A stretch of 64,000 bases of DNA from an uncultured Alteromonas sp. (GTDB taxonomy: Bacteria; Pseudomonadota; Gammaproteobacteria; Enterobacterales; Alteromonadaceae). The notes beneath the pieces are model-generated. The model did not search any database. It was not told the origin of the DNA and worked only from the letters and a program-made list of their open reading frames with translations. Where the stretch lies: positions 1 to 64,000 of the forward strand of contig NZ_CAJXQY010000006.1 of the NCBI RefSeq assembly GCF_913058315.1, given 5' to 3'. Each line of letters opens with the position of its first letter. Positions within the stretch are counted from its first letter, which is position 1. A program made the position numbers and the translations under genes. Positions 2,499-54,967 of the stretch are shown piece after piece.

Positions 2499-5150
2499 TT
2501 AGAAGATTTCCTCTACGTCAGGCGTTGAGTCTTCCTGCTCAGCCGGATCCATGACGTCATCTTCTAAGACATACACGGTCGGCTCAGTGCCCCTCAGGAA
2601 ATACTCGAATAGTGTGGTATGGTCTGTACGTCGGGTCAACTTCCCACTGGTACGATCAATTCGCACCCGTACGATATCATCGGGTACCGACATAGCTTCT
2701 TCCGGCTCGTCTTCAAGCGCTACCTGCATAAAGCGGATCCACGCTGGTTGTGCTGCCATAGCACCACTCTCCGTGCCTACCATGGCATTACCAATCCAGC
2801 CGAAGCGGTCAGGATCCCGTTTGGCCAGCGGATTATTATAAGCCGCTCTGCCAAGTTGCCTTGTCATGTCATCAAAACCCACCCAGGCGGTGGCGACCAG
2901 GTTGCGGCTGAAACCACTGAACCAGGCATCCCGGGAATCATTAGTTGTACCGGTTTTACCAGCCAGATCGGTGCGTTGCAGAATGTTTCTGGCGCGCCAG
3001 CCAGTGCCCTGCCAGTAAGTCTTTTTGTTCCAGCTGCCATTGGCTCTGACGGCGGTACGCATCATATCTGCGACTAAAAATGCATTCTGAGCTGAAATTA
3101 CCCGGGGCGCTGCCATAACTTCTGCAATATCCGACTGGGCTGGCAGCGACTGATTTAACTCCGCAGCTAACAGCGCCTCAATATCGGTTTCCTGCTCGTC
3201 CTGGTTCGCCTTTTCTGCACTGCTTTCTGCGCAGTTATCGCAGGCAACTACCGGATTGGTTTGCCATAACACTTCCCCGGTTTCATTGAGTACCCGGTCG
3301 ATAAAATACGGCTCAATTAAGAACCCACCGTTGGCTATCGTAGCCATACCGCGAACGATCTCCAGTGGCGTATGAGAACTTGAGCCCAGCGATACGGTTT
3401 CATCACGGTGGATATCCGTTCTGTCCAGACCAAAGTGGGTCAGGTGTTCAATGGTATTGTCCAGCCCTACACCACGCAGTAAACGCACTGACACCACGTT
3501 TTTAGACTTACCCAGTGCCACCCGCATACGGATAGGCCCGTCGTATTCAGCCGGTGAATTCTGCGGTCGCCACGCGACGCCGGTTGCTTCATCCCACTCA
3601 TTGATTGGCGCATCGTTGATAATACTGGCAACGGTATAGCCATTATCGAGCGCCGCCGAATAAACAAATGGTTTGATATTTGAGCCCACCTGACGTTTGG
3701 CCTGAGTCGCCCGGTTAAACTGACTCTGATAAAAGCTGTATCCGCCAACAATGGCCTGTACCGCGCCATCATGCGGGTCCAACGCAACAAAGGCGCCGCT
3801 GACCGCGGGTAATTGAGCCAGCCGCCACAGACCATCCTGCTGCCGGATATAAACAATATCACCCGCACTGACAATATCAGACGCCTCGGAGGGAGGCTGG
3901 CCTTGCCGGCTATCGCTTAAAAATGGCCGGGCCCAGTCCATACCCTGCCATTCAATGACCCGCTCAGTGCCAGTGACATCCCGGGTGATAAAAGTTTGCT
4001 CATCGACGCTGATAACCGCTACCGGGAACACAAAACCAAACGCGCCGGCATTGTCTAACTGACTGATCACCGCTTCTTCCGTTACCTCACAAGGCCAGTA
4101 CGGATAAAGTGGTGTGGTCTCGCAGCCGGATTCTGCCTCGTCAGTCTCCGGCGTTGGCTGATCTTTTTGTTGTGGCCACAAGCGTGCCACCGCGCCGCGA
4201 TAACCATGACGTTCATCGTAATCGTGTAAATTCTGCTTTACTGCATTTTGTGCCGCCTGCTGTAATTCAGACGAAACGGTCGCATAAACCTGGTATCCGC
4301 CGGTCTCCGCTTCTTCTTTGCCATACAACGTCACCATTTCTGAATAAATCAGATCGGCCAGGTAAGGGGCATCCAGTTCAATTTCTGCACCATGCTTCTC
4401 GGCTGTAACCGGCGCACTGGCAGCTTCATCAAATTGCTGGCGGGTAATGTAACCTTCATCGAGCATCCGCAGTAGCACAATGCGACGGCGCTCCACCGAA
4501 CGTGCCGGACGGCTCACCGGGTTCAATACTGAAGGGGCCTGGGGCAAACCAGCCAGCGTAGCTATTTGCGCCAGCGTTAGTTCGTCGAGTCGCTTGCCAT
4601 AGTAAACCTGGGCCGCTGCGCCAAAACCAAAAGAGCGGTGTCCGAGCTCCACCTTATTTAAATACAGCTCGAAAATTTCGTCTTTGCTGAGCTCGGCTTC
4701 CATATGCAGAGCAATAAACACTTCCTTTATTTTACGAATATAGGTTTTCTCTCGGGTTAAAAAGAACCCCCGTGCCAACTGCTGGGTTAAGGTACTTGCA
4801 CCCTGACTTTTCTCGCCGGTCAGAACAAGGTTAATGAAAGCCCGTGTGATGCCGATAGGATCAATACCGAAGTGCTCGTAAAAACGATTATCTTCTGTTG
4901 CCAGGATGGCCTTTTGCAGTAAATCCGGGGCCTGTTCCAGGGTAACCGGGATGCGGCGTTTAACGCCGTACTGCGAGATGAGTTTACCGTCATGCGTATA
5001 GATACGCATAGGCGTTTGCAATCGCACATCTTTCAGGATTGCAACGCTGGGCAGGTCCGGCTTGATATAAAAATAAATACCCGTAAGTGCAATACCGCCG
5101 AGCAGTGCACCGACAAATCCGAGCAATAAGAAGGTTTTGATATACTTCAC
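2499..5150 (-). CDS. mrcA: Penicillin-binding protein 1A (bifunctional transglycosylase/transpeptidase)
   Basis: An 883-residue class A PBP that polymerises lipid II and cross-links peptidoglycan at the inner membrane. The N-terminal anchor (residues about 5-28) precedes the GT51 domain, with the catalytic-Glu motif TEDNRFYEHFG near 90 and STLTQQLAR near 120. An OB-like insert follows (about 320-430). The transpeptidase domain shows the SxxK motif GSNIKPF, the SxN motif SKN, and KTGTT near 720. Divergence from pilM across a 140-bp shared promoter region is the classic gammaproteobacterial ponA/pilM arrangement. Length is slightly above that of the E. coli protein. Confidence 0.97.
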   Translation of the reverse strand: MKYIKTFLLLGFVGALLGGIALTGIYFYIKPDLPSVAILKDVRLQTPMRIYTHDGKLISQYGVKRRIPVTLEQAPDLLQKAILATEDNRFYEHFGIDPIGITRAFINLVLTGEKSQGASTLTQQLARGFFLTREKTYIRKIKEVFIALHMEAELSKDEIFELYLNKVELGHRSFGFGAAAQVYYGKRLDELTLAQIATLAGLPQAPSVLNPVSRPARSVERRRIVLLRMLDEGYITRQQFDEAASAPVTAEKHGAEIELDAPYLADLIYSEMVTLYGKEEAETGGYQVYATVSSELQQAAQNAVKQNLHDYDERHGYRGAVARLWPQQKDQPTPETDEAESGCETTPLYPYWPCEVTEEAVISQLDNAGAFGFVFPVAVISVDEQTFITRDVTGTERVIEWQGMDWARPFLSDSRQGQPPSEASDIVSAGDIVYIRQQDGLWRLAQLPAVSGAFVALDPHDGAVQAIVGGYSFYQSQFNRATQAKRQVGSNIKPFVYSAALDNGYTVASIINDAPINEWDEATGVAWRPQNSPAEYDGPIRMRVALGKSKNVVSVRLLRGVGLDNTIEHLTHFGLDRTDIHRDETVSLGSSSHTPLEIVRGMATIANGGFLIEPYFIDRVLNETGEVLWQTNPVVACDNCAESSAEKANQDEQETDIEALLAAELNQSLPAQSDIAEVMAAPRVISAQNAFLVADMMRTAVRANGSWNKKTYWQGTGWRARNILQRTDLAGKTGTTNDSRDAWFSGFSRNLVATAWVGFDDMTRQLGRAAYNNPLAKRDPDRFGWIGNAMVGTESGAMAAQPAWIRFMQVALEDEPEEAMSVPDDIVRVRIDRTSGKLTRRTDHTTLFEYFLRGTEPTVYVLEDDVMDPAEQEDSTPDVEEIF

Positions 5151-5290
5151 AATAAGAATAAACAGGGCTTTTCTGCAAAAATGACTTATATTTTATACCT
5201 AAGTGTATTTATTAGAACCATTAAATAGAAAAAATTTAAGTAACATCTTATGTTAGAAATTGATAGCAAGTAAATGAGACTCAGTTGACT

Positions 5291-6361
5291 ATGCTAAAAT
5301 CGCTGTTCAAGAAAAAGCAACCCCCCATTGTCGGACTCGACATTGGCACCCGTTGCATCAAGGCAGTTGTGTTGGAAGGCGCTGAGGGCGACTACACGCT
5401 GACGGCGTTTGCCTGCGAGCCGATTATTAAAGAAGCATTCAGAGAGCGTGAGATAACCGACTTCGACGCAGTAAGTCTGGCGTTACGTAAAGTTCGTTTG
5501 GCACTTAAGAGTAAAATTAAGCCAGCAGTCATTGCCGTAGCCGGCACTTCGGTGATCAGCAAAATCGTGCATATGGAACCTGATCAGTCCGACTACGAGC
5601 TTGAAGGACAGATAGAAGTCGAGGCCGACAGCTTAATCCCCTACCCGCTGGAAGAAGTTTATCTGGACTTCGAGGAAGTGGGTATGAGTGAAACCCATTC
5701 TGGTAAAGTGAACGTGTTGCTTACCGCCGCCCACCGTGATGTGGTGGATAATCGCTCCACGCTGGTACGTGAACATAGCTTCGAGCCGAAAGTGGTGGAC
5801 GTGGAAACCTACGCTATGGGTAATGCGGTAGATTACTTTTATCCCCATAACGAAGAAACCCAGCGTATATGCTGCATTAATATTGGTTCATCTCTTCTGC
5901 AGGTTACTGTTTGGGATGATGGCAAAACTGTGTATACCAAAGAGCACACTTTCGGCGTTGATGCGCTGATTCAGGATTTGTCTCTTGTGCACATGCTTGA
6001 TCGCAAAGATACTGAGGAACAGTTAATCAACAATACCCTACCAAGCAACTGGATTAGTGATACCCTGCCTATCTTTGCGGCAAATCTGCAGCAGCAGATT
6101 AATCGTGCCTTACAAATGTACATGAGCACCATGCAGACTGAGCGTCCTGAAAAAGTCATCCTGACGGGCGCTGGCGCGGTTATACCGGCGCTGGTAGATA
6201 CCTTACAACAGGATCTCGGCATTGCGGTGGAAGTCTTCAATCCTTTTGCCAATGTCAAAATCAGTGACAAACTAAATGCTGAGCAGGTCGAGCAGGTTGC
6301 ACCTTTACTGGCAATTGCTGCAGGCCTCGCCAGCAGGGGGATGTCAAGATGGCACATGTAA
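5291..6361 (+). CDS. pilM: Type IV pilus assembly protein PilM
   Basis: An actin-like cytoplasmic protein of the type IV pilus inner-membrane platform; it binds ATP and the N-terminal INLLP tail of PilN. Seen: LDIGTRCIKAVVL near residue 15 (phosphate-1 loop) and LTGAGAVIPALV near 295 (adenosine motif). The ATG at 5291 is preferred over an in-frame TTG at 5285 because the purine stretch gagac (5276-5280) is better spaced from it; the TTG would add only two residues. First gene of pilMNOPQ; it overlaps pilN by 13 bases, implying translational coupling. Confidence 0.95.
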   Translation: MLKSLFKKKQPPIVGLDIGTRCIKAVVLEGAEGDYTLTAFACEPIIKEAFREREITDFDAVSLALRKVRLALKSKIKPAVIAVAGTSVISKIVHMEPDQSDYELEGQIEVEADSLIPYPLEEVYLDFEEVGMSETHSGKVNVLLTAAHRDVVDNRSTLVREHSFEPKVVDVETYAMGNAVDYFYPHNEETQRICCINIGSSLLQVTVWDDGKTVYTKEHTFGVDALIQDLSLVHMLDRKDTEEQLINNTLPSNWISDTLPIFAANLQQQINRALQMYMSTMQTERPEKVILTGAGAVIPALVDTLQQDLGIAVEVFNPFANVKISDKLNAEQVEQVAPLLAIAAGLASRGMSRWHM

Positions 6362-50011: not shown

Positions 50012-50758
50012 ATGGCCGGTCTATCTGGCATGGAAAAAATGGACTTAGCCTTTACCGGACCAACCCGCTTTAAACCTTCTGAACCAGCCCCGAACAAAGC
50101 TGGCAGATTGGTGTGGCTGATTATCGGCTCGGTGTTGTTTCATATCGTAGTGCTGGCCACACTGTCGTTTCAGCCACCGGCTGTGCCGCCGGTAAAATCC
50201 AGCCCGATTAAAGCCGCGTTATACACACCGGTTAGACCCCTCCCCCCAAAGCCCGAGACGAACGAGAAGTCCCAACCGGCACCCGTCGTTGCTGAAGCTG
50301 CAGACCCTAACGCTCAGTCATCTGAGGAGCCGCCACCCGCTCAGCAGCACTCACCGCTGGCACAGCCAGAGACGAACGTAAACACCAATAACCAGTCATC
50401 TGCACCCGCCCCCGGGGAAATACTCATGCAGGCAGAAGATAGCCCCGCGCCGCCCTCACGACGGCTATCCGATGCCATCAGCCGAGGCATTGCAGGGCAA
50501 CAGTTGCAGCAACAATACGACTTAGCAGAGGAAGTCAGCCGCCAGCGGCGCGAAGAGCACATCTCACCCGATTTAAAAATCAGTGAGTACGAACCACCCA
50601 AAAAAGTCGTCGGTGAATATGCCGTGAATTGCGAAAAGGGAGTGAATAGAACTGTGGCAACAGTTGCGCGACTGTTTGGAGGCAATGTAAAGTGCAACAG
50701 TCGCAATGAATTTCAGCAATTCATCGACAAACGACAACATAACCAACCAGAACAATAA
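50012..50758 (+). CDS. Proline-rich single-span membrane protein, unknown
   Basis: A 248-residue protein: a cytoplasmic N-terminus (about 1-30), one transmembrane helix (about 31-50: RLVWLIIGSVLFHIVVLATL), and a Pro/Ala/Gln/Glu-rich periplasmic region (about 53-150). A charged C-terminal domain follows (about 150-248) with two Cys (CEKGVN, KCNSR) that could form a disulfide. The layout recalls TonB/TolA-type spacers but the C-terminal TonB signature is absent. Start ATG at 50012 has agggaa upstream; two later ATGs are possible. Lies 10 bases before the DUF808 gene. Confidence 0.65.
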   Translation: MAGLSGMEKMDLAFTGPTRFKPSEPAPNKAGRLVWLIIGSVLFHIVVLATLSFQPPAVPPVKSSPIKAALYTPVRPLPPKPETNEKSQPAPVVAEAADPNAQSSEEPPPAQQHSPLAQPETNVNTNNQSSAPAPGEILMQAEDSPAPPSRRLSDAISRGIAGQQLQQQYDLAEEVSRQRREEHISPDLKISEYEPPKKVVGEYAVNCEKGVNRTVATVARLFGGNVKCNSRNEFQQFIDKRQHNQPEQ

Positions 50759-50768
50759 GGGACTGCCC

Positions 50769-51683
50769 GTGGCCGGAGCCAACCTACTTGCACTCATTGA
50801 TGATATAGCCACTCTGCTAGACGACGTCGCCATGATGTCGAAAATGGCAGCCAAGAAAACTGCCGGTGTGCTGGGCGATGATTTAGCGCTGAATGCCAAT
50901 CAGGTACAGGGCGTGAAACCTGACCGCGAAATACCCGTGGTGTGGGCAGTGGCTAAGGGATCCTTCATTAATAAACTGATCCTGGTGCCGGCAGCATTGT
51001 TGATCAGTGCTTTTGTACCGGTGCTAATCACCGTGCTACTGGTACTTGGCGGGCTCTATTTGTGTTTTGAAGGGGCCGAGAAGGTACTCCACCGCTTCCT
51101 GCCCCATAGCGACACCGCGGAGGAAGCCGATGCACGTCTGAATAATCTGGCCGACGCGTCCATTGACCTCGTGCAAATGGAAAAGGATAAGATTAAGGGC
51201 GCTATTCGCACCGACTTTATTTTATCGGCTGAAATAGTGGTTATTACTCTCGGCAGCTTGCAAGGTGCCGACCTGACGACTCAGATTCTGGTACTCAGTG
51301 GTTTGAGTATCGCCTTTACTATTGGCGTTTATGGCCTGGTAGCCGGCATTGTAAAGATGGACGATCTCGGCCTGTATTTGCTGCGCAAGTCGCTTACCGG
51401 TGGTTATAACTCGGCCCAGCGACTGGCCGGCCGTTTTCTGCTCACTGCGGCGCCGGTGCTAATGAAAGTATTGTCGTTTGTTGGCACCATAGCGATGTTT
51501 TTGGTGGGCGGCGGCATTCTGACCCACAGCATTCCCTTTTTACATCACCTGGCCGAGTCGGTTAGCCAGTTAGTGCCGCCAATAGCGCTGATCCTGAGCA
51601 TTGTTGCCGATGGCATTGCCGGATTAATCGCCGGCACCATCATCGCTCTTGCCCTGGCTATCTTCAATAAGGCCCGCAGTTAA
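50769..51683 (+). CDS. DUF808 (YedI-type) inner-membrane protein
   Basis: A 304-residue protein starting at GTG 50769 (ANLLALIDDIATLLDDVA), after aaggg; an upstream in-frame ATG at 50706 lies inside the preceding gene and adds a sequence unlike the family. Conserved DDVAMMSKMAAKKTAGVLGDD (about 15-35) marks DUF808. Several transmembrane helices follow (about 70-95, 155-175, 180-205, 235-262 and 275-300). E. coli YedI is the best-known member; function unknown. Confidence 0.85.
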   Translation: MAGANLLALIDDIATLLDDVAMMSKMAAKKTAGVLGDDLALNANQVQGVKPDREIPVVWAVAKGSFINKLILVPAALLISAFVPVLITVLLVLGGLYLCFEGAEKVLHRFLPHSDTAEEADARLNNLADASIDLVQMEKDKIKGAIRTDFILSAEIVVITLGSLQGADLTTQILVLSGLSIAFTIGVYGLVAGIVKMDDLGLYLLRKSLTGGYNSAQRLAGRFLLTAAPVLMKVLSFVGTIAMFLVGGGILTHSIPFLHHLAESVSQLVPPIALILSIVADGIAGLIAGTIIALALAIFNKARS

Positions 51684-51697
51684 AACGTCTTCTATCC

Positions 51698-51736
51698 ACA
51701 GTAAAGTTGCGTTCGTCATTTTCGCTACTTTACTGT
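51698..51736. promoter_or_regulatory. Perfect inverted repeat after DUF808 gene
   Basis: ACAGTAAAGT (51698-51707) and ACTTTACTGT (51727-51736) are perfect 10-bp arms with a 19-base spacer that itself contains GCG/CGC. It is either a terminator-like stem for the DUF808 transcript (weak T tail) or an upstream activator site for the sigma-54 promoter at 51845, whose -24 element is about 110 bp away. Confidence 0.5.
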
Positions 51737-51814
51737 CATTTCTGTTATTAATTAGTTTAAAAAGCTACTCCTTTATTTTTCGCCACCCTGCCAAAAACAA
51801 AACATTCCTATAAT

Positions 51815-51827
51815 TATCAATAATTTA
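51815..51827 (+). promoter_or_regulatory. IHF site
   Basis: TATCAATAATTTA fits the IHF consensus WATCAA-N4-TTR exactly. It lies in an A/T-rich block 18 bp upstream of the -24 element of the sigma-54 promoter, the normal place for a DNA-bending site that brings an enhancer-bound activator to sigma-54 polymerase. Confidence 0.55.
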
Positions 51828-51844
51828 AAAATTAATAACCTGAC

Positions 51845-51859
51845 TGGCACAACTATCGC
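51845..51859 (+). promoter_or_regulatory. Sigma-54 promoter of the 39-aa peptide unit
   Basis: TGGCAC-AACTA-TCGC, preceded by C and followed by T. GG and GC are separated by exactly 10 bases; the only important departure from TGGCAC-N5-TTGCW is C for T in TTGC. Predicted start near 51871. Confidence 0.7.
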
Positions 51860-51870
51860 TAACTATTCTG

Positions 51871-51987
51871 CGACTTAACTAAACAGACAGCCTGCTCGGC
51901 GAGCATGAAGAGGCTCTGATTGGGTACAGGGCAGTGAGTGTGACTCTCTCACTGGTGTGCCCGTAACGAACAGCGAGGTTCGAGATT
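51871..51987 (+). ncRNA. Structured leader of the 39-aa peptide mRNA
   Basis: Three stems are visible. First: CAG-CCT-GCTC-ggc-GAGC with AGG and CTG closing at about 51889-51919. Second: GGGC-AGTGAG, 9-base loop, CTCACT, bulge, GCCC at about 51929-51962. Third: CGAA, loop containing the gcgagg ribosome site, TTCG at about 51967-51982. The last stem presents or hides the ribosome site of the ORF at 51988. No known riboswitch class recognised. Confidence 0.5.
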
Positions 51988-52107
51988 ATGATTACTTACA
52001 GTTTTTTGATTTGGCTTTTATTGGGTCCGGTACTGGCTTATATCGTCGCTCTGGGAATTGTGAACGGTATTCGGTATCTGTTTACGTCTGACTCGTTGAT
52101 CCATTAA
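51988..52107 (+). CDS. 39-aa membrane peptide under sigma-54 control, unknown
   Basis: A 39-residue frame, MITYSFLIWLLLGPVLAYIV at its N-terminus, almost wholly one transmembrane helix (about 5-30), ending in a short polar tail. The ribosome site gcgagg lies about 10 bases upstream. It stands alone between a sigma-54 promoter with structured leader and a strong terminator (52153-52191), so it is its own transcription unit. It does not resemble CydX, KdpF, PspG or MgtS. The combination makes a genuine small-protein gene likely, though an sRNA with an incidental frame cannot be ruled out. Confidence 0.6.
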   Translation: MITYSFLIWLLLGPVLAYIVALGIVNGIRYLFTSDSLIH

Positions 52108-52152
52108 TAGTTTACCCGTTTTGTATCCCTGGACACTCCCGTAGTGCCACTT

Positions 52153-52191
52153 CTCAGGAATTGCAGATCTCTGCAATCTCCTGAGTTTTTT
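52153..52191 (+). terminator. Strong terminator of the small-peptide unit
   Basis: CTCAGGA-ATTGCAGA, loop tc, TCTGCAAT-c-TCCTGAG, then TTTTTT. The 15-bp stem has one bulged base. It lies 46 bases after the 39-codon frame. Confidence 0.9.
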
Positions 52192-52316
52192 ATCTGCTAA
52201 AGACTAATAATCACTCGCAGTTACTCGGCTATAGCAAGCTAGCAGCCTCTTTTCTTCACAACAAACTTATTTTTGCTATAACGTTCACTTTAAATACGAT
52301 AGATGTCTTGGCATTT

Positions 52317-52522
52317 TGTCGGGGTGCCGACAGCACCAAGGGGCGTTATGCGACGCCCCTTGACCCCCGCAGTTCTTACTCACGAAAAGCATACTGTCAT
52401 CGGGCAGGTAAAACCTATCGACCAGAGAGGGCTCCATGCCCTCGCTGGCCGGAGGCGTCGTCCATGACGCCTCTACGCTTTTACTTCATCTGCCCAATGA
52501 CAGTATCTCGCTCAATAAGAAC
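52317..52522. repeat. Complex multi-hairpin palindromic element
   Basis: Four small hairpins: TGTCGG/CCGACA (52317-52332); AAGGGGCGT/ACGCCCCTT (52338-52361); CCAG-a-GAGGGC/GCCCTC-g-CTGG (52422-52448); GAGGCGTC/GACGCCTC (52452-52473). The last two are nested inside a 17-bp outer stem with one mismatch (52391-52407 with 52490-52506), extended by GTAAAA/TTTTAC inside and GTTCTTA/TAAGAAC (52372-52378, 52516-52522) outside. No coding function: the open frame across it (52308-52685) is dictated by the palindromes. It resembles dispersed REP- or MITE-like elements of marine gammaproteobacteria. Confidence 0.7.
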
Positions 52523-52597
52523 CAAAAATAAGGATGTATTGCACTCTGCTTATAAACTTCACCAACCAGGTAGTTTTAGCCAGGTTTTATTAGCCTA

Positions 52598-54967
52598 TCA
52601 ACCACCAAACAACCGTTCCCACCATGACTTTTCCTTTGCTTTCTTAACCGGCGTTTTGTCTCTCGATTGGCCCACACAGCCCTGAGCAGGCGGCAGGACA
52701 TCAAGCACTGCAGGGACACTCAGGCTGCCAGGACACCCGGCAGTTAACACTGCGCCGGTGACAGGATCAAAGTGAGCTATACCCAGGCCGTTGGGGAAGC
52801 GTCGGGACAGTGATTTAGGCTCCTGCAACTGCTGATAAGCCATAAATACCGGCAGCGCGCCGGTAGATCCGGTTAAGCCGATAGATTTATTATCGTCGTT
52901 TCCGACCCATACGGTCGCCAGGTTATTGCGGTCATAGCCGGCAAACCAGCTGTCACGGTAATCATCCGTAGTACCGGTTTTACCGGCCATATTGATGTTA
53001 TCAAAGGCTCTGCCGATAGCTTTTGCAGTGCCCTGGGTAGCAACGCGATACAGGGCGTAGTTAAGCAAATAAGCCGATTCTTCATTAACCCGCTGCTCAC
53101 CGTATTCTGCCTGTCGCCACATTAAGCGATTATTTACGCTCACAATAGCGCTAACGGTATGCAGTGGTCGATAAGCGCCGTTGTTGGCAATCGTCTGATA
53201 CAGTTGATTGGTTTCAAAAGGCGTGAGGGCAACAGCCCCCAGCGTTAATGCCGGCACCTCAGGAACAGGCCGTTTGACGCCCAGTTTTTTGAGTGTCGCC
53301 GCAACATTGTCGATACCCAGCTCGAGCCCCAAATTAACGGTTGGGACATTAAGCGACAGACTAAGTGCATCGATTAGCGGTACGCTGCCCCGGTAGGTTT
53401 TATCAAAGTTCTGCGGTTGCCAGTTATCGCCATGCTCATCGCTGAGTGACAAAGGCTGGTCCTGAAGCGGTGTGGCCAGGTTATACTGTGCAGGCTGCTC
53501 CAGAGCTGTCAGATACACGGCCGGCTTTACCAGAGAGCCGATCGGCCGTACCGCATCCAGCGCCCGGTTAAACCCGGCAAAGCTAACATTGCGGCCGCCT
53601 ACCAGAGCCCGCACTTCACCGCTGCCGATATCCGATACCACCATAGCGCCTTCCAGGGGCGCCTCCCGGCCCGGCTGTAACCGGTCAAGTGTACTGGTCA
53701 GCGCCTGCTCTGCTCGGCGCTGGGCATAAATATCCAGGGTAGTGAACACCTTTACTCCTGACTCACGAATATTCGGATCAGCCAGAATAGTTTGCAGTTC
53801 TTTGCGCACCTGGGTCATAAATGCCGGGTGCTTGCCGGTTGCCAGACTATCGCCGGTGGCGATACCCACAGGCCTGGACACCGCCATCTCGTATTGTTGA
53901 GGGGTTAACTCGTTGCCTTCAAGTAACAGGCGTAATACCAGATTGCGACGTTCCACAGCCCGTTCAGGATACTTTCGTGGATTATAAAACGAAGGGCCTT
54001 TGATCATGCCCACCAGCATGGCAATTTCCGTTTCATCCAGTTCATTCACCGGACGGTCAAAATAGAAGTAGCTGGCGAGACCGAACCCGTGCACCGCCAT
54101 ATCCCCACTCTGGCCGAGGAAGACTTCATTGAGGTAGGCCTGAATAATCTTATCCTTGCTGTAACGGGCATCAATGATGATGGCCATTAATGCTTCTTTT
54201 ATTTTCCGTTCCAGCGACCGCTCACGGGTAAGATAGAGATTTTTTACCAGTTGCTGGGTAAGCGTACTGCCCCCCTGAACCGTGCGTCCGGCCGCAATAT
54301 TAGCCAGCAACGCCCGAATGATCGATAATGGTGCAACCCCGTGATGACTATAGAAATCGCGGTCTTCAGTGAGGGTCAGGGCTTTTACCAGTAAGGGCGG
54401 TAAGTCTTCCAGCGTCACCAGCATTCTATCTTCCTGACTGCCGCTGGCGAGACGGGTCACCAGCCAGGATTCGAGTCTGACCTGTGGCAACTGCTGGTCG
54501 GTCTGTAAATCGGTTATTGAAGCAATACGTGAACCGTTCCAGCGAATGCTTAACTGGCGCAGCGGCTGAAAGCCGTCAGGAAAATGGAAAGCCCGGCGAA
54601 AAATATTAATGGCTGCCGAGCCAACACTGTATTCGCCACTCCCCTGAATCTGAGTCACCCGCCGGTATCCCAGCAGCTTCAACTCATCGAGTACTTCCTT
54701 GCGGGTAATTTCCTCACCGGTTTCCAGTTGCAGTGGCCGGGCATATATTTGTGCAGGCACCTGCCACTTGTTGCCCGAAAAATGGTGTTTTATCTGCGCA
54801 TCCAGATAAATGACATAGGCGCCAAACAGCACCAGCAGGATCAAAGATAGCTTCCAGAAAAACCGCCAGAGTCGACGTTTTCGGTTAGGATTAGCAGTAG
54901 GTTCGGCTTTTTTTGATGTCACAACACTTCCTGTAAATACTTTGCGGGAACGACCGGTTGCTGGCAT
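52598..54967 (-). CDS. mrcB: Penicillin-binding protein 1B (bifunctional)
   Basis: A 789-residue class A PBP. A basic cytoplasmic tail (about 1-30), a transmembrane helix (about 35-55) and a UB2H-like domain (about 65-150: GEEITRKEVLDELKLLGYRRV) come first. GT51 follows (LTEDRDFYSHHGVAPLS near 195, GGSTLTQQLVKN near 235), then the transpeptidase with GSLVKP (about 480), SLN (about 538) and KTGTT (about 672). The UB2H region, which binds the LpoB-type activator in enterics, distinguishes it from PBP1A at 2499-5150. Ends 76 bases from the palindromic element. Confidence 0.96.
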   Translation of the reverse strand: MPATGRSRKVFTGSVVTSKKAEPTANPNRKRRLWRFFWKLSLILLVLFGAYVIYLDAQIKHHFSGNKWQVPAQIYARPLQLETGEEITRKEVLDELKLLGYRRVTQIQGSGEYSVGSAAINIFRRAFHFPDGFQPLRQLSIRWNGSRIASITDLQTDQQLPQVRLESWLVTRLASGSQEDRMLVTLEDLPPLLVKALTLTEDRDFYSHHGVAPLSIIRALLANIAAGRTVQGGSTLTQQLVKNLYLTRERSLERKIKEALMAIIIDARYSKDKIIQAYLNEVFLGQSGDMAVHGFGLASYFYFDRPVNELDETEIAMLVGMIKGPSFYNPRKYPERAVERRNLVLRLLLEGNELTPQQYEMAVSRPVGIATGDSLATGKHPAFMTQVRKELQTILADPNIRESGVKVFTTLDIYAQRRAEQALTSTLDRLQPGREAPLEGAMVVSDIGSGEVRALVGGRNVSFAGFNRALDAVRPIGSLVKPAVYLTALEQPAQYNLATPLQDQPLSLSDEHGDNWQPQNFDKTYRGSVPLIDALSLSLNVPTVNLGLELGIDNVAATLKKLGVKRPVPEVPALTLGAVALTPFETNQLYQTIANNGAYRPLHTVSAIVSVNNRLMWRQAEYGEQRVNEESAYLLNYALYRVATQGTAKAIGRAFDNINMAGKTGTTDDYRDSWFAGYDRNNLATVWVGNDDNKSIGLTGSTGALPVFMAYQQLQEPKSLSRRFPNGLGIAHFDPVTGAVLTAGCPGSLSVPAVLDVLPPAQGCVGQSRDKTPVKKAKEKSWWERLFGG

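Follow-up and report, generated by a model that had tools for sequence, protein, structure and literature searches.

The orphan gene pspG of Escherichia coli is described in an excerpt of PMC9239133 as the one known target of PspF besides the pspA operon, with a role that is not understood. The E. coli K-12 annotation gives the gene order dusA, pspG, PspH, with PspH entered as a 3′-UTR sRNA of pspG in a table excerpted from PMC8175672, and genomic SELEX (gSELEX; PMC8743547) places the E. coli dusA-pspG gap among RpoN-holoenzyme targets as well as in an NtrC target list. PspG has two predicted helices (excerpt of PMC2763126) and, by the length of its CDS, 80 residues.

A comparable unit lies in the window, the 64,000-nucleotide stretch of DNA analysed here, which is carried by a genome of 4.95 Mb. 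The gap between a DUF808 gene (50706-51683, plus strand) and mrcB, encoding PBP1B (52598-54967, minus strand), holds one candidate transcription unit and no other recognised gene, just mechanical ORFs, which bears out the otherwise empty gap described in the first-pass annotation. The locus is close in alignment to sequences bearing the titles Alteromonas oceani, Alteromonas alba, and other Alteromonadaceae. Searches of open-licence PMC papers returned no description of the unit. Judged by its sequence the unit is real and conserved, and it very probably belongs to the PspF regulon, probably in the role of pspG though without detectable PspG homology, its expression, binding, and function being predicted.

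As with E. coli pspG, a lone small membrane protein is encoded under sigma-54/PspF-type control, and where E. coli has a small RNA annotated just downstream, the unit has a candidate sRNA tail; the operon of many relatives, though not the window copy, directly follows dusA. In contrast to the 80 residues and two predicted helices of PspG, the window peptide has 39 residues and one helix, and the window copy lies between DUF808 and mrcB whereas E. coli pspG follows dusA. The peptide was rejected as a PspG homologue (hhalign probability 0.5%, no Pfam match), and the PspG family (PF09583), found in 4/60 genomes, was found in 0/36 genomes of the genus and not in the window's own genome (G000). Further downstream, in the interval between the terminator of the unit and mrcB, positions 52303-52500 contain internal inverted repeats (ACTGTCAT..GGGCAG / CTGCCCAATGACAGT), with the mechanical ORFs of this segment recurring downstream of the unit in loci L079, L080, L083, and L098; it is possibly a REP- or MITE-like element.

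Sigma-54 promoter and candidate upstream activator sites

The near-consensus GG-N10-GC promoter proposed in the first-pass annotation is confirmed at 51846-51859, within the -24/-12 element TGGCACAACTATCGCT (51845-51860, plus strand), the sole match to TGGCAC-N5-TYGCW on both strands of the 64 kb, with transcription expected to start near 51870. A pattern running from the promoter through the expected start (TGGCACAACTATCGCNANNNNNNNTGCGACTTA) has one exact match in each of 41 genome_contigs stretches, titled Alteromonas, Lacimicrobium, Paraglaciecola, Aliiglaciecola, Aestuariibacter, Salinimonas, Bowmanella, Neptunicella, Marisediminitalea, and unclassified Alteromonadaceae and Gammaproteobacteria, and with up to 3 mismatches it occurs in 6/394 genomes of the order, all 6 from the window's family. 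Within the genus, a TGGCAC-N5-TYGC box lies no more than 900 bases upstream of the peptide in 24 of the 25 loci inspected (25 of 36 genus genomes). A sigma-70 promoter was rejected, with 0 found in 51000-53000 compared with 2.3 expected. The perfect IHF consensus reported earlier is likewise exact in the sequence (WATCAANNNNTTR, 51815-51827, plus strand), lying between the activator sites and the promoter; there are 6 exact matches in the 64 kb, and the consensus is exact at the equivalent place in 9 of 42 promoters, the window counted, with many of the remaining 33 showing by eye a degenerate A-tract with ATCAA or AACAA.

Upstream of the IHF site lie two 18-bp PspF-type sites, TTCGTCATTTTCGCTACT (site 1, 51712-51729, plus strand) and GTAGCTTTTTAAACTAAT (site 2, 51751-51768, minus strand), which rank third and second respectively of 127,966 position-strand windows under a model trained on 30 sites from this operon in lineages other than the window's clade. 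This second model is not independent of the pspA matrix described below because its training sites were chosen with that matrix. Its best matches in the E. coli K-12 gaps score 16.0 before pspA and 19.8 before pspG, sites which we take to be those of PspF. The inverted repeat at 51698-51736, earlier proposed as the activator site, is present in the sequence and overlaps site 1, but the motif proper consists of the two 18-bp sites; by eye, the repeat might instead be the end hairpin of the DUF808 transcript, and it is absent from a simple terminator scan.

The pspF-pspA gaps of the genus carry a site like TTAGTCATTTCGACCAA, the version in the window's genome being GTAGCCAAATCGACCAA, and a matrix was built from 13 unique pspA upstream sites, drawn from 28 usable of 30 pspF loci. 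With this matrix, 38 of 42 operon upstreams reach a shuffle p of 0.05 or lower (4/42 miss p 0.05), with a median of 11.4 bits, whereas the upstreams of 185 other genes, used as controls, have a median of -0.4 bits; the 95th percentile of the controls (7.1 bits) is exceeded by 34 of the 42 and the control maximum by 9. The best matches lie at -131 to -134 in 25 upstreams, at -110 to -113 in 8, and elsewhere in 9, the window's own best match belonging to the last group. In the window, site 1, positioned at -133 relative to TGG, is weak with this pspA-only matrix (4.4 bits), and site 2 is the top match upstream of the promoter at 6.2 bits (shuffle p 0.05), a score which is below the 95th percentile of the 185 control upstreams (7.1 bits) and 17th in the window. 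The gap before pspG in a distant relative (L109) carries TTGGTTATTTTAACCATT (7.8 bits with the pspA matrix) and a sigma-54 box, and the corresponding gap in another family of the order (L111) scores -5.5; the dusA genes of both loci were identified by eye.

A scan of the window's genome with a strict activator motif (up to 2 mismatches) returned 73 matches compared with 63 for a reversed control, and lists neither the window's sites nor the pspA site. Its perfect matches fall in three places, all on contig C122. Loci were available for 30 of the 73 rows, and among the 19 loci inspected a sigma-54 box scoring at least 16.8 accompanies the match at just 4, namely the three places on C122 and one on C11. 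The latter (L174) has a PspF-type site at 1501-1517 and a strong sigma-54 box, TTGGCATCGTCGTTGCT, in front of a minus-strand gene near 1035-1358. The product of this gene is a DUF3718 protein that appears to have a signal peptide, and the gene is a candidate further PspF target.

The window's genome contains pspF-pspABC alongside the sigma-54 promoter with PspF-type upstream sites, two features expected of a Psp regulon member. Like the unit, the pspABC operon has sigma-54 control and an activator site of this type; it differs in encoding other proteins and in being divergent from pspF. On contig C122 the order is dusA, a secreted-protein and peptide unit, a second nearly identical unit, pspA2, and a PspC-domain gene, followed further along by DUF2333 and a TIGR04219 outer-membrane protein. 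Each of the two units, and likewise pspA2, is preceded by PspF-type sites and sigma-54 boxes; the kinship of the C122 peptides is judged from position and form because the family profile did not find them. The tandem (L150, G000:C122:7500-14381, positions 4111-5366) lies between dusA and pspA2 and consists of near-identical copies with a period of about 788 bases, each comprising the PspF-type site and sigma-54 box followed by the genes for the secreted protein and the peptide; it would reflect either a duplication of recent date or an artefact of assembly. A third gene of the PspA/IM30 family lies elsewhere in this genome (G000:C55:1427-2089).

The first-pass annotation was right to expect an enhancer-binding activator, the enhancer-type sites being present, but it missed that this activator can be named, by inference, as PspF, under whose control the unit very probably stands. 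An unlikely alternative is that a different enhancer-binding protein activates the sigma-54 unit, the palindromes then being its sites. The genome encodes 13 strong sigma-54 activators, and NtrC in particular comes into consideration because glnB-amtB lies about 2 kb upstream, the ORF beside the PII gene being AmtB-like and presumably AmtB by its sequence; the occurrence of the E. coli dusA-pspG gap among the gSELEX NtrC targets (PMC8743547, in excerpt) points the same way. Against this alternative, the motif resembles the genus pspA upstream site as well as those present in the gaps before E. coli pspA and pspG, and the operon follows dusA in other lineages and adjoins a pspA paralogue in the window's genome.

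The predicted membrane peptide and the two-gene operon of relatives

The 39-codon frame at 51988-52107 (plus strand) encodes MITYSFLIWLLLGPVLAYIVALGIVNGIRYLFTSDSLIH, almost certainly a genuinely translated peptide and, from its form, one predicted to lie in the inner membrane. AlphaFold2 models a single helix over residues 4-38 (mean pLDDT 88.6), with a best 19-residue hydropathy of 2.5. The synonymous bias that would mark a coding frame is found, and the frame is under purifying selection, with a pN/pS of 0.17 over the 10 distinct sequences of 12 close copies compared with 1.44 and 4.71 for the two remaining forward frames; one reverse frame reads 0.30 but contains 31 stops. Third positions hold 31 of the 49 variable columns (p 1.7e-5, a nominal value because the sequences are related). 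The family profile matches 36/36 genus genomes, with best E values from 5e-16 to 3e-5. The peptide alignment comprises 38 rows, these being the window, 35 of 39 peptides (four near-duplicates removed), G016, and L036 (minus its first codon), and the invariance of the proline among peptides of the 41 stretches is partly by construction because the selection pattern required it. Assignment to a known protein family failed, with no match in Pfam or NCBIfam beyond scores below cut-off, in agreement with the first-pass view of a peptide without known relatives.

It is quite improbable that the RNA alone is the product, the unit then being a small RNA under PspF control, with the short frame as a minor part or a relic. 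Such a reading would fit the greater constraint on a 3′ segment of the transcript (30/31 columns invariant, compared with 8/36 third codon positions) and the PspH annotated downstream of E. coli pspG, a 3′-UTR sRNA in the tabulated excerpt of PMC8175672, but the frame is under selection at the protein level, the peptide recurs in 39/39 readable loci and its profile in 36/36 genus genomes, and most genus genomes are without the 3′ segment (4/36 have it, with up to 3 mismatches).

Thirty-nine of the 41 stretches are readable, the other 2 ending before the peptide, and a short hydrophobic peptide is present in 39/39, preceded in 29/39 by a secreted-looking protein of ~95 residues (signal peptide by eye; 28 found by a pattern filter, and L082 added by reading). 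These secreted-plus-peptide operons of the Alteromonadaceae, for which no family name was found, share the promoter and peptide family of the window unit and differ from it in also encoding the ~95-residue protein. The partner is absent in 10/39 loci, of which six are from close relatives of the window and the others from Marisediminitalea, two Aestuariibacter, and A. indica. Among the 41 stretches, dusA precedes the operon in 19 and DUF808, as in the window, in 14, with neither gene seen upstream in 8, of which 7 have less than 1.5 kb of upstream DNA. The window copy, at DUF808-mrcB, is not after dusA. In the window's clade the peptide stands alone, as the first-pass annotation had it, but what was read as a stand-alone unit appears to be the reduced form of a two-gene Alteromonadaceae operon at the dusA/pspG position, which had been missed. 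Loss of the secreted gene in the window's clade is the simplest account, the direction of change being inferred.

The secreted partner has matches in known protein families only below curated cut-offs, and its AlphaFold2 model is poor (mean pLDDT 62.5, one helix at 28-61). Its alignment comprises 28 of the 29 proteins, L082 being removed by a length filter and four starting at a later ATG; the partner profile matches 5/119 genomes of the order, every one of which belongs to the window's family, and one partner protein searched against plasmids gave no match.

Leader, terminator, and 3′ UTR

The leader (51869-51987, plus strand) is structured, as the first-pass annotation proposed, with four plus-strand hairpins formed by TGCTC/GAGCA (51893-51905), GGGTACA/TGTGCCC enclosing CAGTGAG/CTCACTG (51922-51962), and GAAC/GTTC (51968-51981). 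Over 9 sequences of the window's group, 97.1% of 206 cells are paired, compared with 32-51% when the stems are slid. As to covariation in these stems, 3 pairs are altered on both sides, and 1 to 4 of 500 shuffles reach the observed values; this support is modest, the structure having been derived from one of the compared sequences. The leader varies between lineages, the hairpins being missing from three 70-nt leaders (L075, L084, L095), and taken as a whole the transcript folds with an unremarkable energy (z -0.78). A Shine-Dalgarno-like GAGG (51975-51978, plus strand) overlaps the GAAC/GTTC hairpin, and the surrounding GAACAGCGAGGT is invariant across 12 sequences.

The transcript is predicted to end at an intrinsic terminator with conserved arms (52153-52191, plus strand; stem 52153-52185 and six T), and the strength ascribed to it earlier accords with the fold of 52108-52195 (z -4.5), although a simple terminator scan did not pick it up. 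The most conserved RNA part of the unit is the 3′ UTR rather than the leader. In an ultraconserved segment, ACTCCCGTAGTGCCACTTCTCAGGAATTGCA (52135-52165, plus strand), a candidate small-RNA module, 30/31 columns are invariant over 12 sequences compared with 8/36 third codon positions. Of its bases, 13 (52153-52165) belong to the terminator stem. With up to 3 mismatches the segment has one match each in 4/36 genus genomes, the G016 copy carrying a deletion that escapes the search pattern. The first-pass suggestion of a stress or envelope micropeptide or a dual-function RNA pointed in the right direction, the constraint on the 3′ UTR having escaped it.

This invariance suggests a 3′-UTR small RNA, in the manner in which PspH follows pspG; PspH is a listed 3′-UTR sRNA of pspG, and a small RNA here is therefore plausible. 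A PspH-like sRNA would show a conserved 3′-UTR stretch that precedes an intrinsic terminator and lies outside its stem, and such a stretch is found here. From the sequence, a functional 3′ small RNA is a tentative proposal, held at somewhat less than even likelihood. An equally weighted possibility is that the segment is a well-kept terminator region only, within a plain gene for a PspF-controlled membrane peptide, a reading which opposes the small-RNA part alone and otherwise overlaps our best explanation. The 13 of 31 bases within the terminator stem are in keeping with it, the sRNA being a candidate. Outside the stem, however, 17/18 columns are invariant in 52135-52152 compared with 2/27 in the adjoining 52108-52134, and several other Alteromonas-type loci show by eye a similar CUCCC...GGGCC stretch before unlike terminators, both of which speak against this reading.

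When 5 genomes were searched for complements of the core of this 3′ segment, 18 matches were obtained (the units themselves account for 5), compared with 17 in the control. Of the other places matched, one alone is common to all five genomes (5/5; L193, L191, L199, L200, L198), and consists of CUCCCGCAGUGCC, nearly the same as the 3′ segment, within a possible hairpin in the leader of an enolase-like gene, presumably enolase from its first residues. This leader is not a target, as it carries the same sense as the 3′ segment. Known RNA families were rejected, with 0 Rfam matches at gathering score in the window.

A proposed PspF-controlled slot in the Alteromonadaceae

The favoured reading of the unit, as a PspF-regulon member in the role of pspG, draws on features apparent at the sequence level, with the conservation of promoter and frame, the PspF-type sites, the dusA/pspG position, the linkage to a pspA paralogue, and the constraint on the 3′ UTR all pointing to it. 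Under inner-membrane stress, PspF would be freed from PspA and bind the two upstream sites, with IHF bending the DNA between these sites and the promoter. The sigma-54 polymerase would then start near 51870 and produce an RNA of ~320 nt ending at 52191, encoding the 39-residue single-helix inner-membrane peptide. The peptide is probably a stress effector or modulator working like PspG, the identification as a PspG-like membrane effector being somewhat better than even, and a small-RNA role, in place or after release, is possible for the invariant 3′ tail.

The unit is related to the two-gene operon that in many relatives occupies the place of E. coli pspG after dusA. Alteromonas-type genomes carry a copy between DUF808 and mrcB, which in the window's clade lacks the secreted gene. 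We tentatively propose, at rather less than even confidence, that the Alteromonadaceae filled the pspG position with an unrelated gene pair, for a secreted helical protein and a membrane micropeptide, and that the window's clade condensed this pair into a dual-function PspF-controlled RNA, comprising a 39-residue membrane effector and a 3′-UTR sRNA, in parallel to pspG-PspH.

The Alteromonadaceae seem to have unrelated small proteins at the site of pspG with control of the same kind, and several PspF targets seem to be present in the window's genome. If true, the PspF-controlled slot beside dusA would be a fixed part of the response, and the small membrane effector would be exchangeable. Furthermore, should the 3′ tail prove to be an sRNA, the coupling of a membrane peptide to an sRNA would exist in two lineages, and the functions of PspG and PspH would become directly testable in a compact system.
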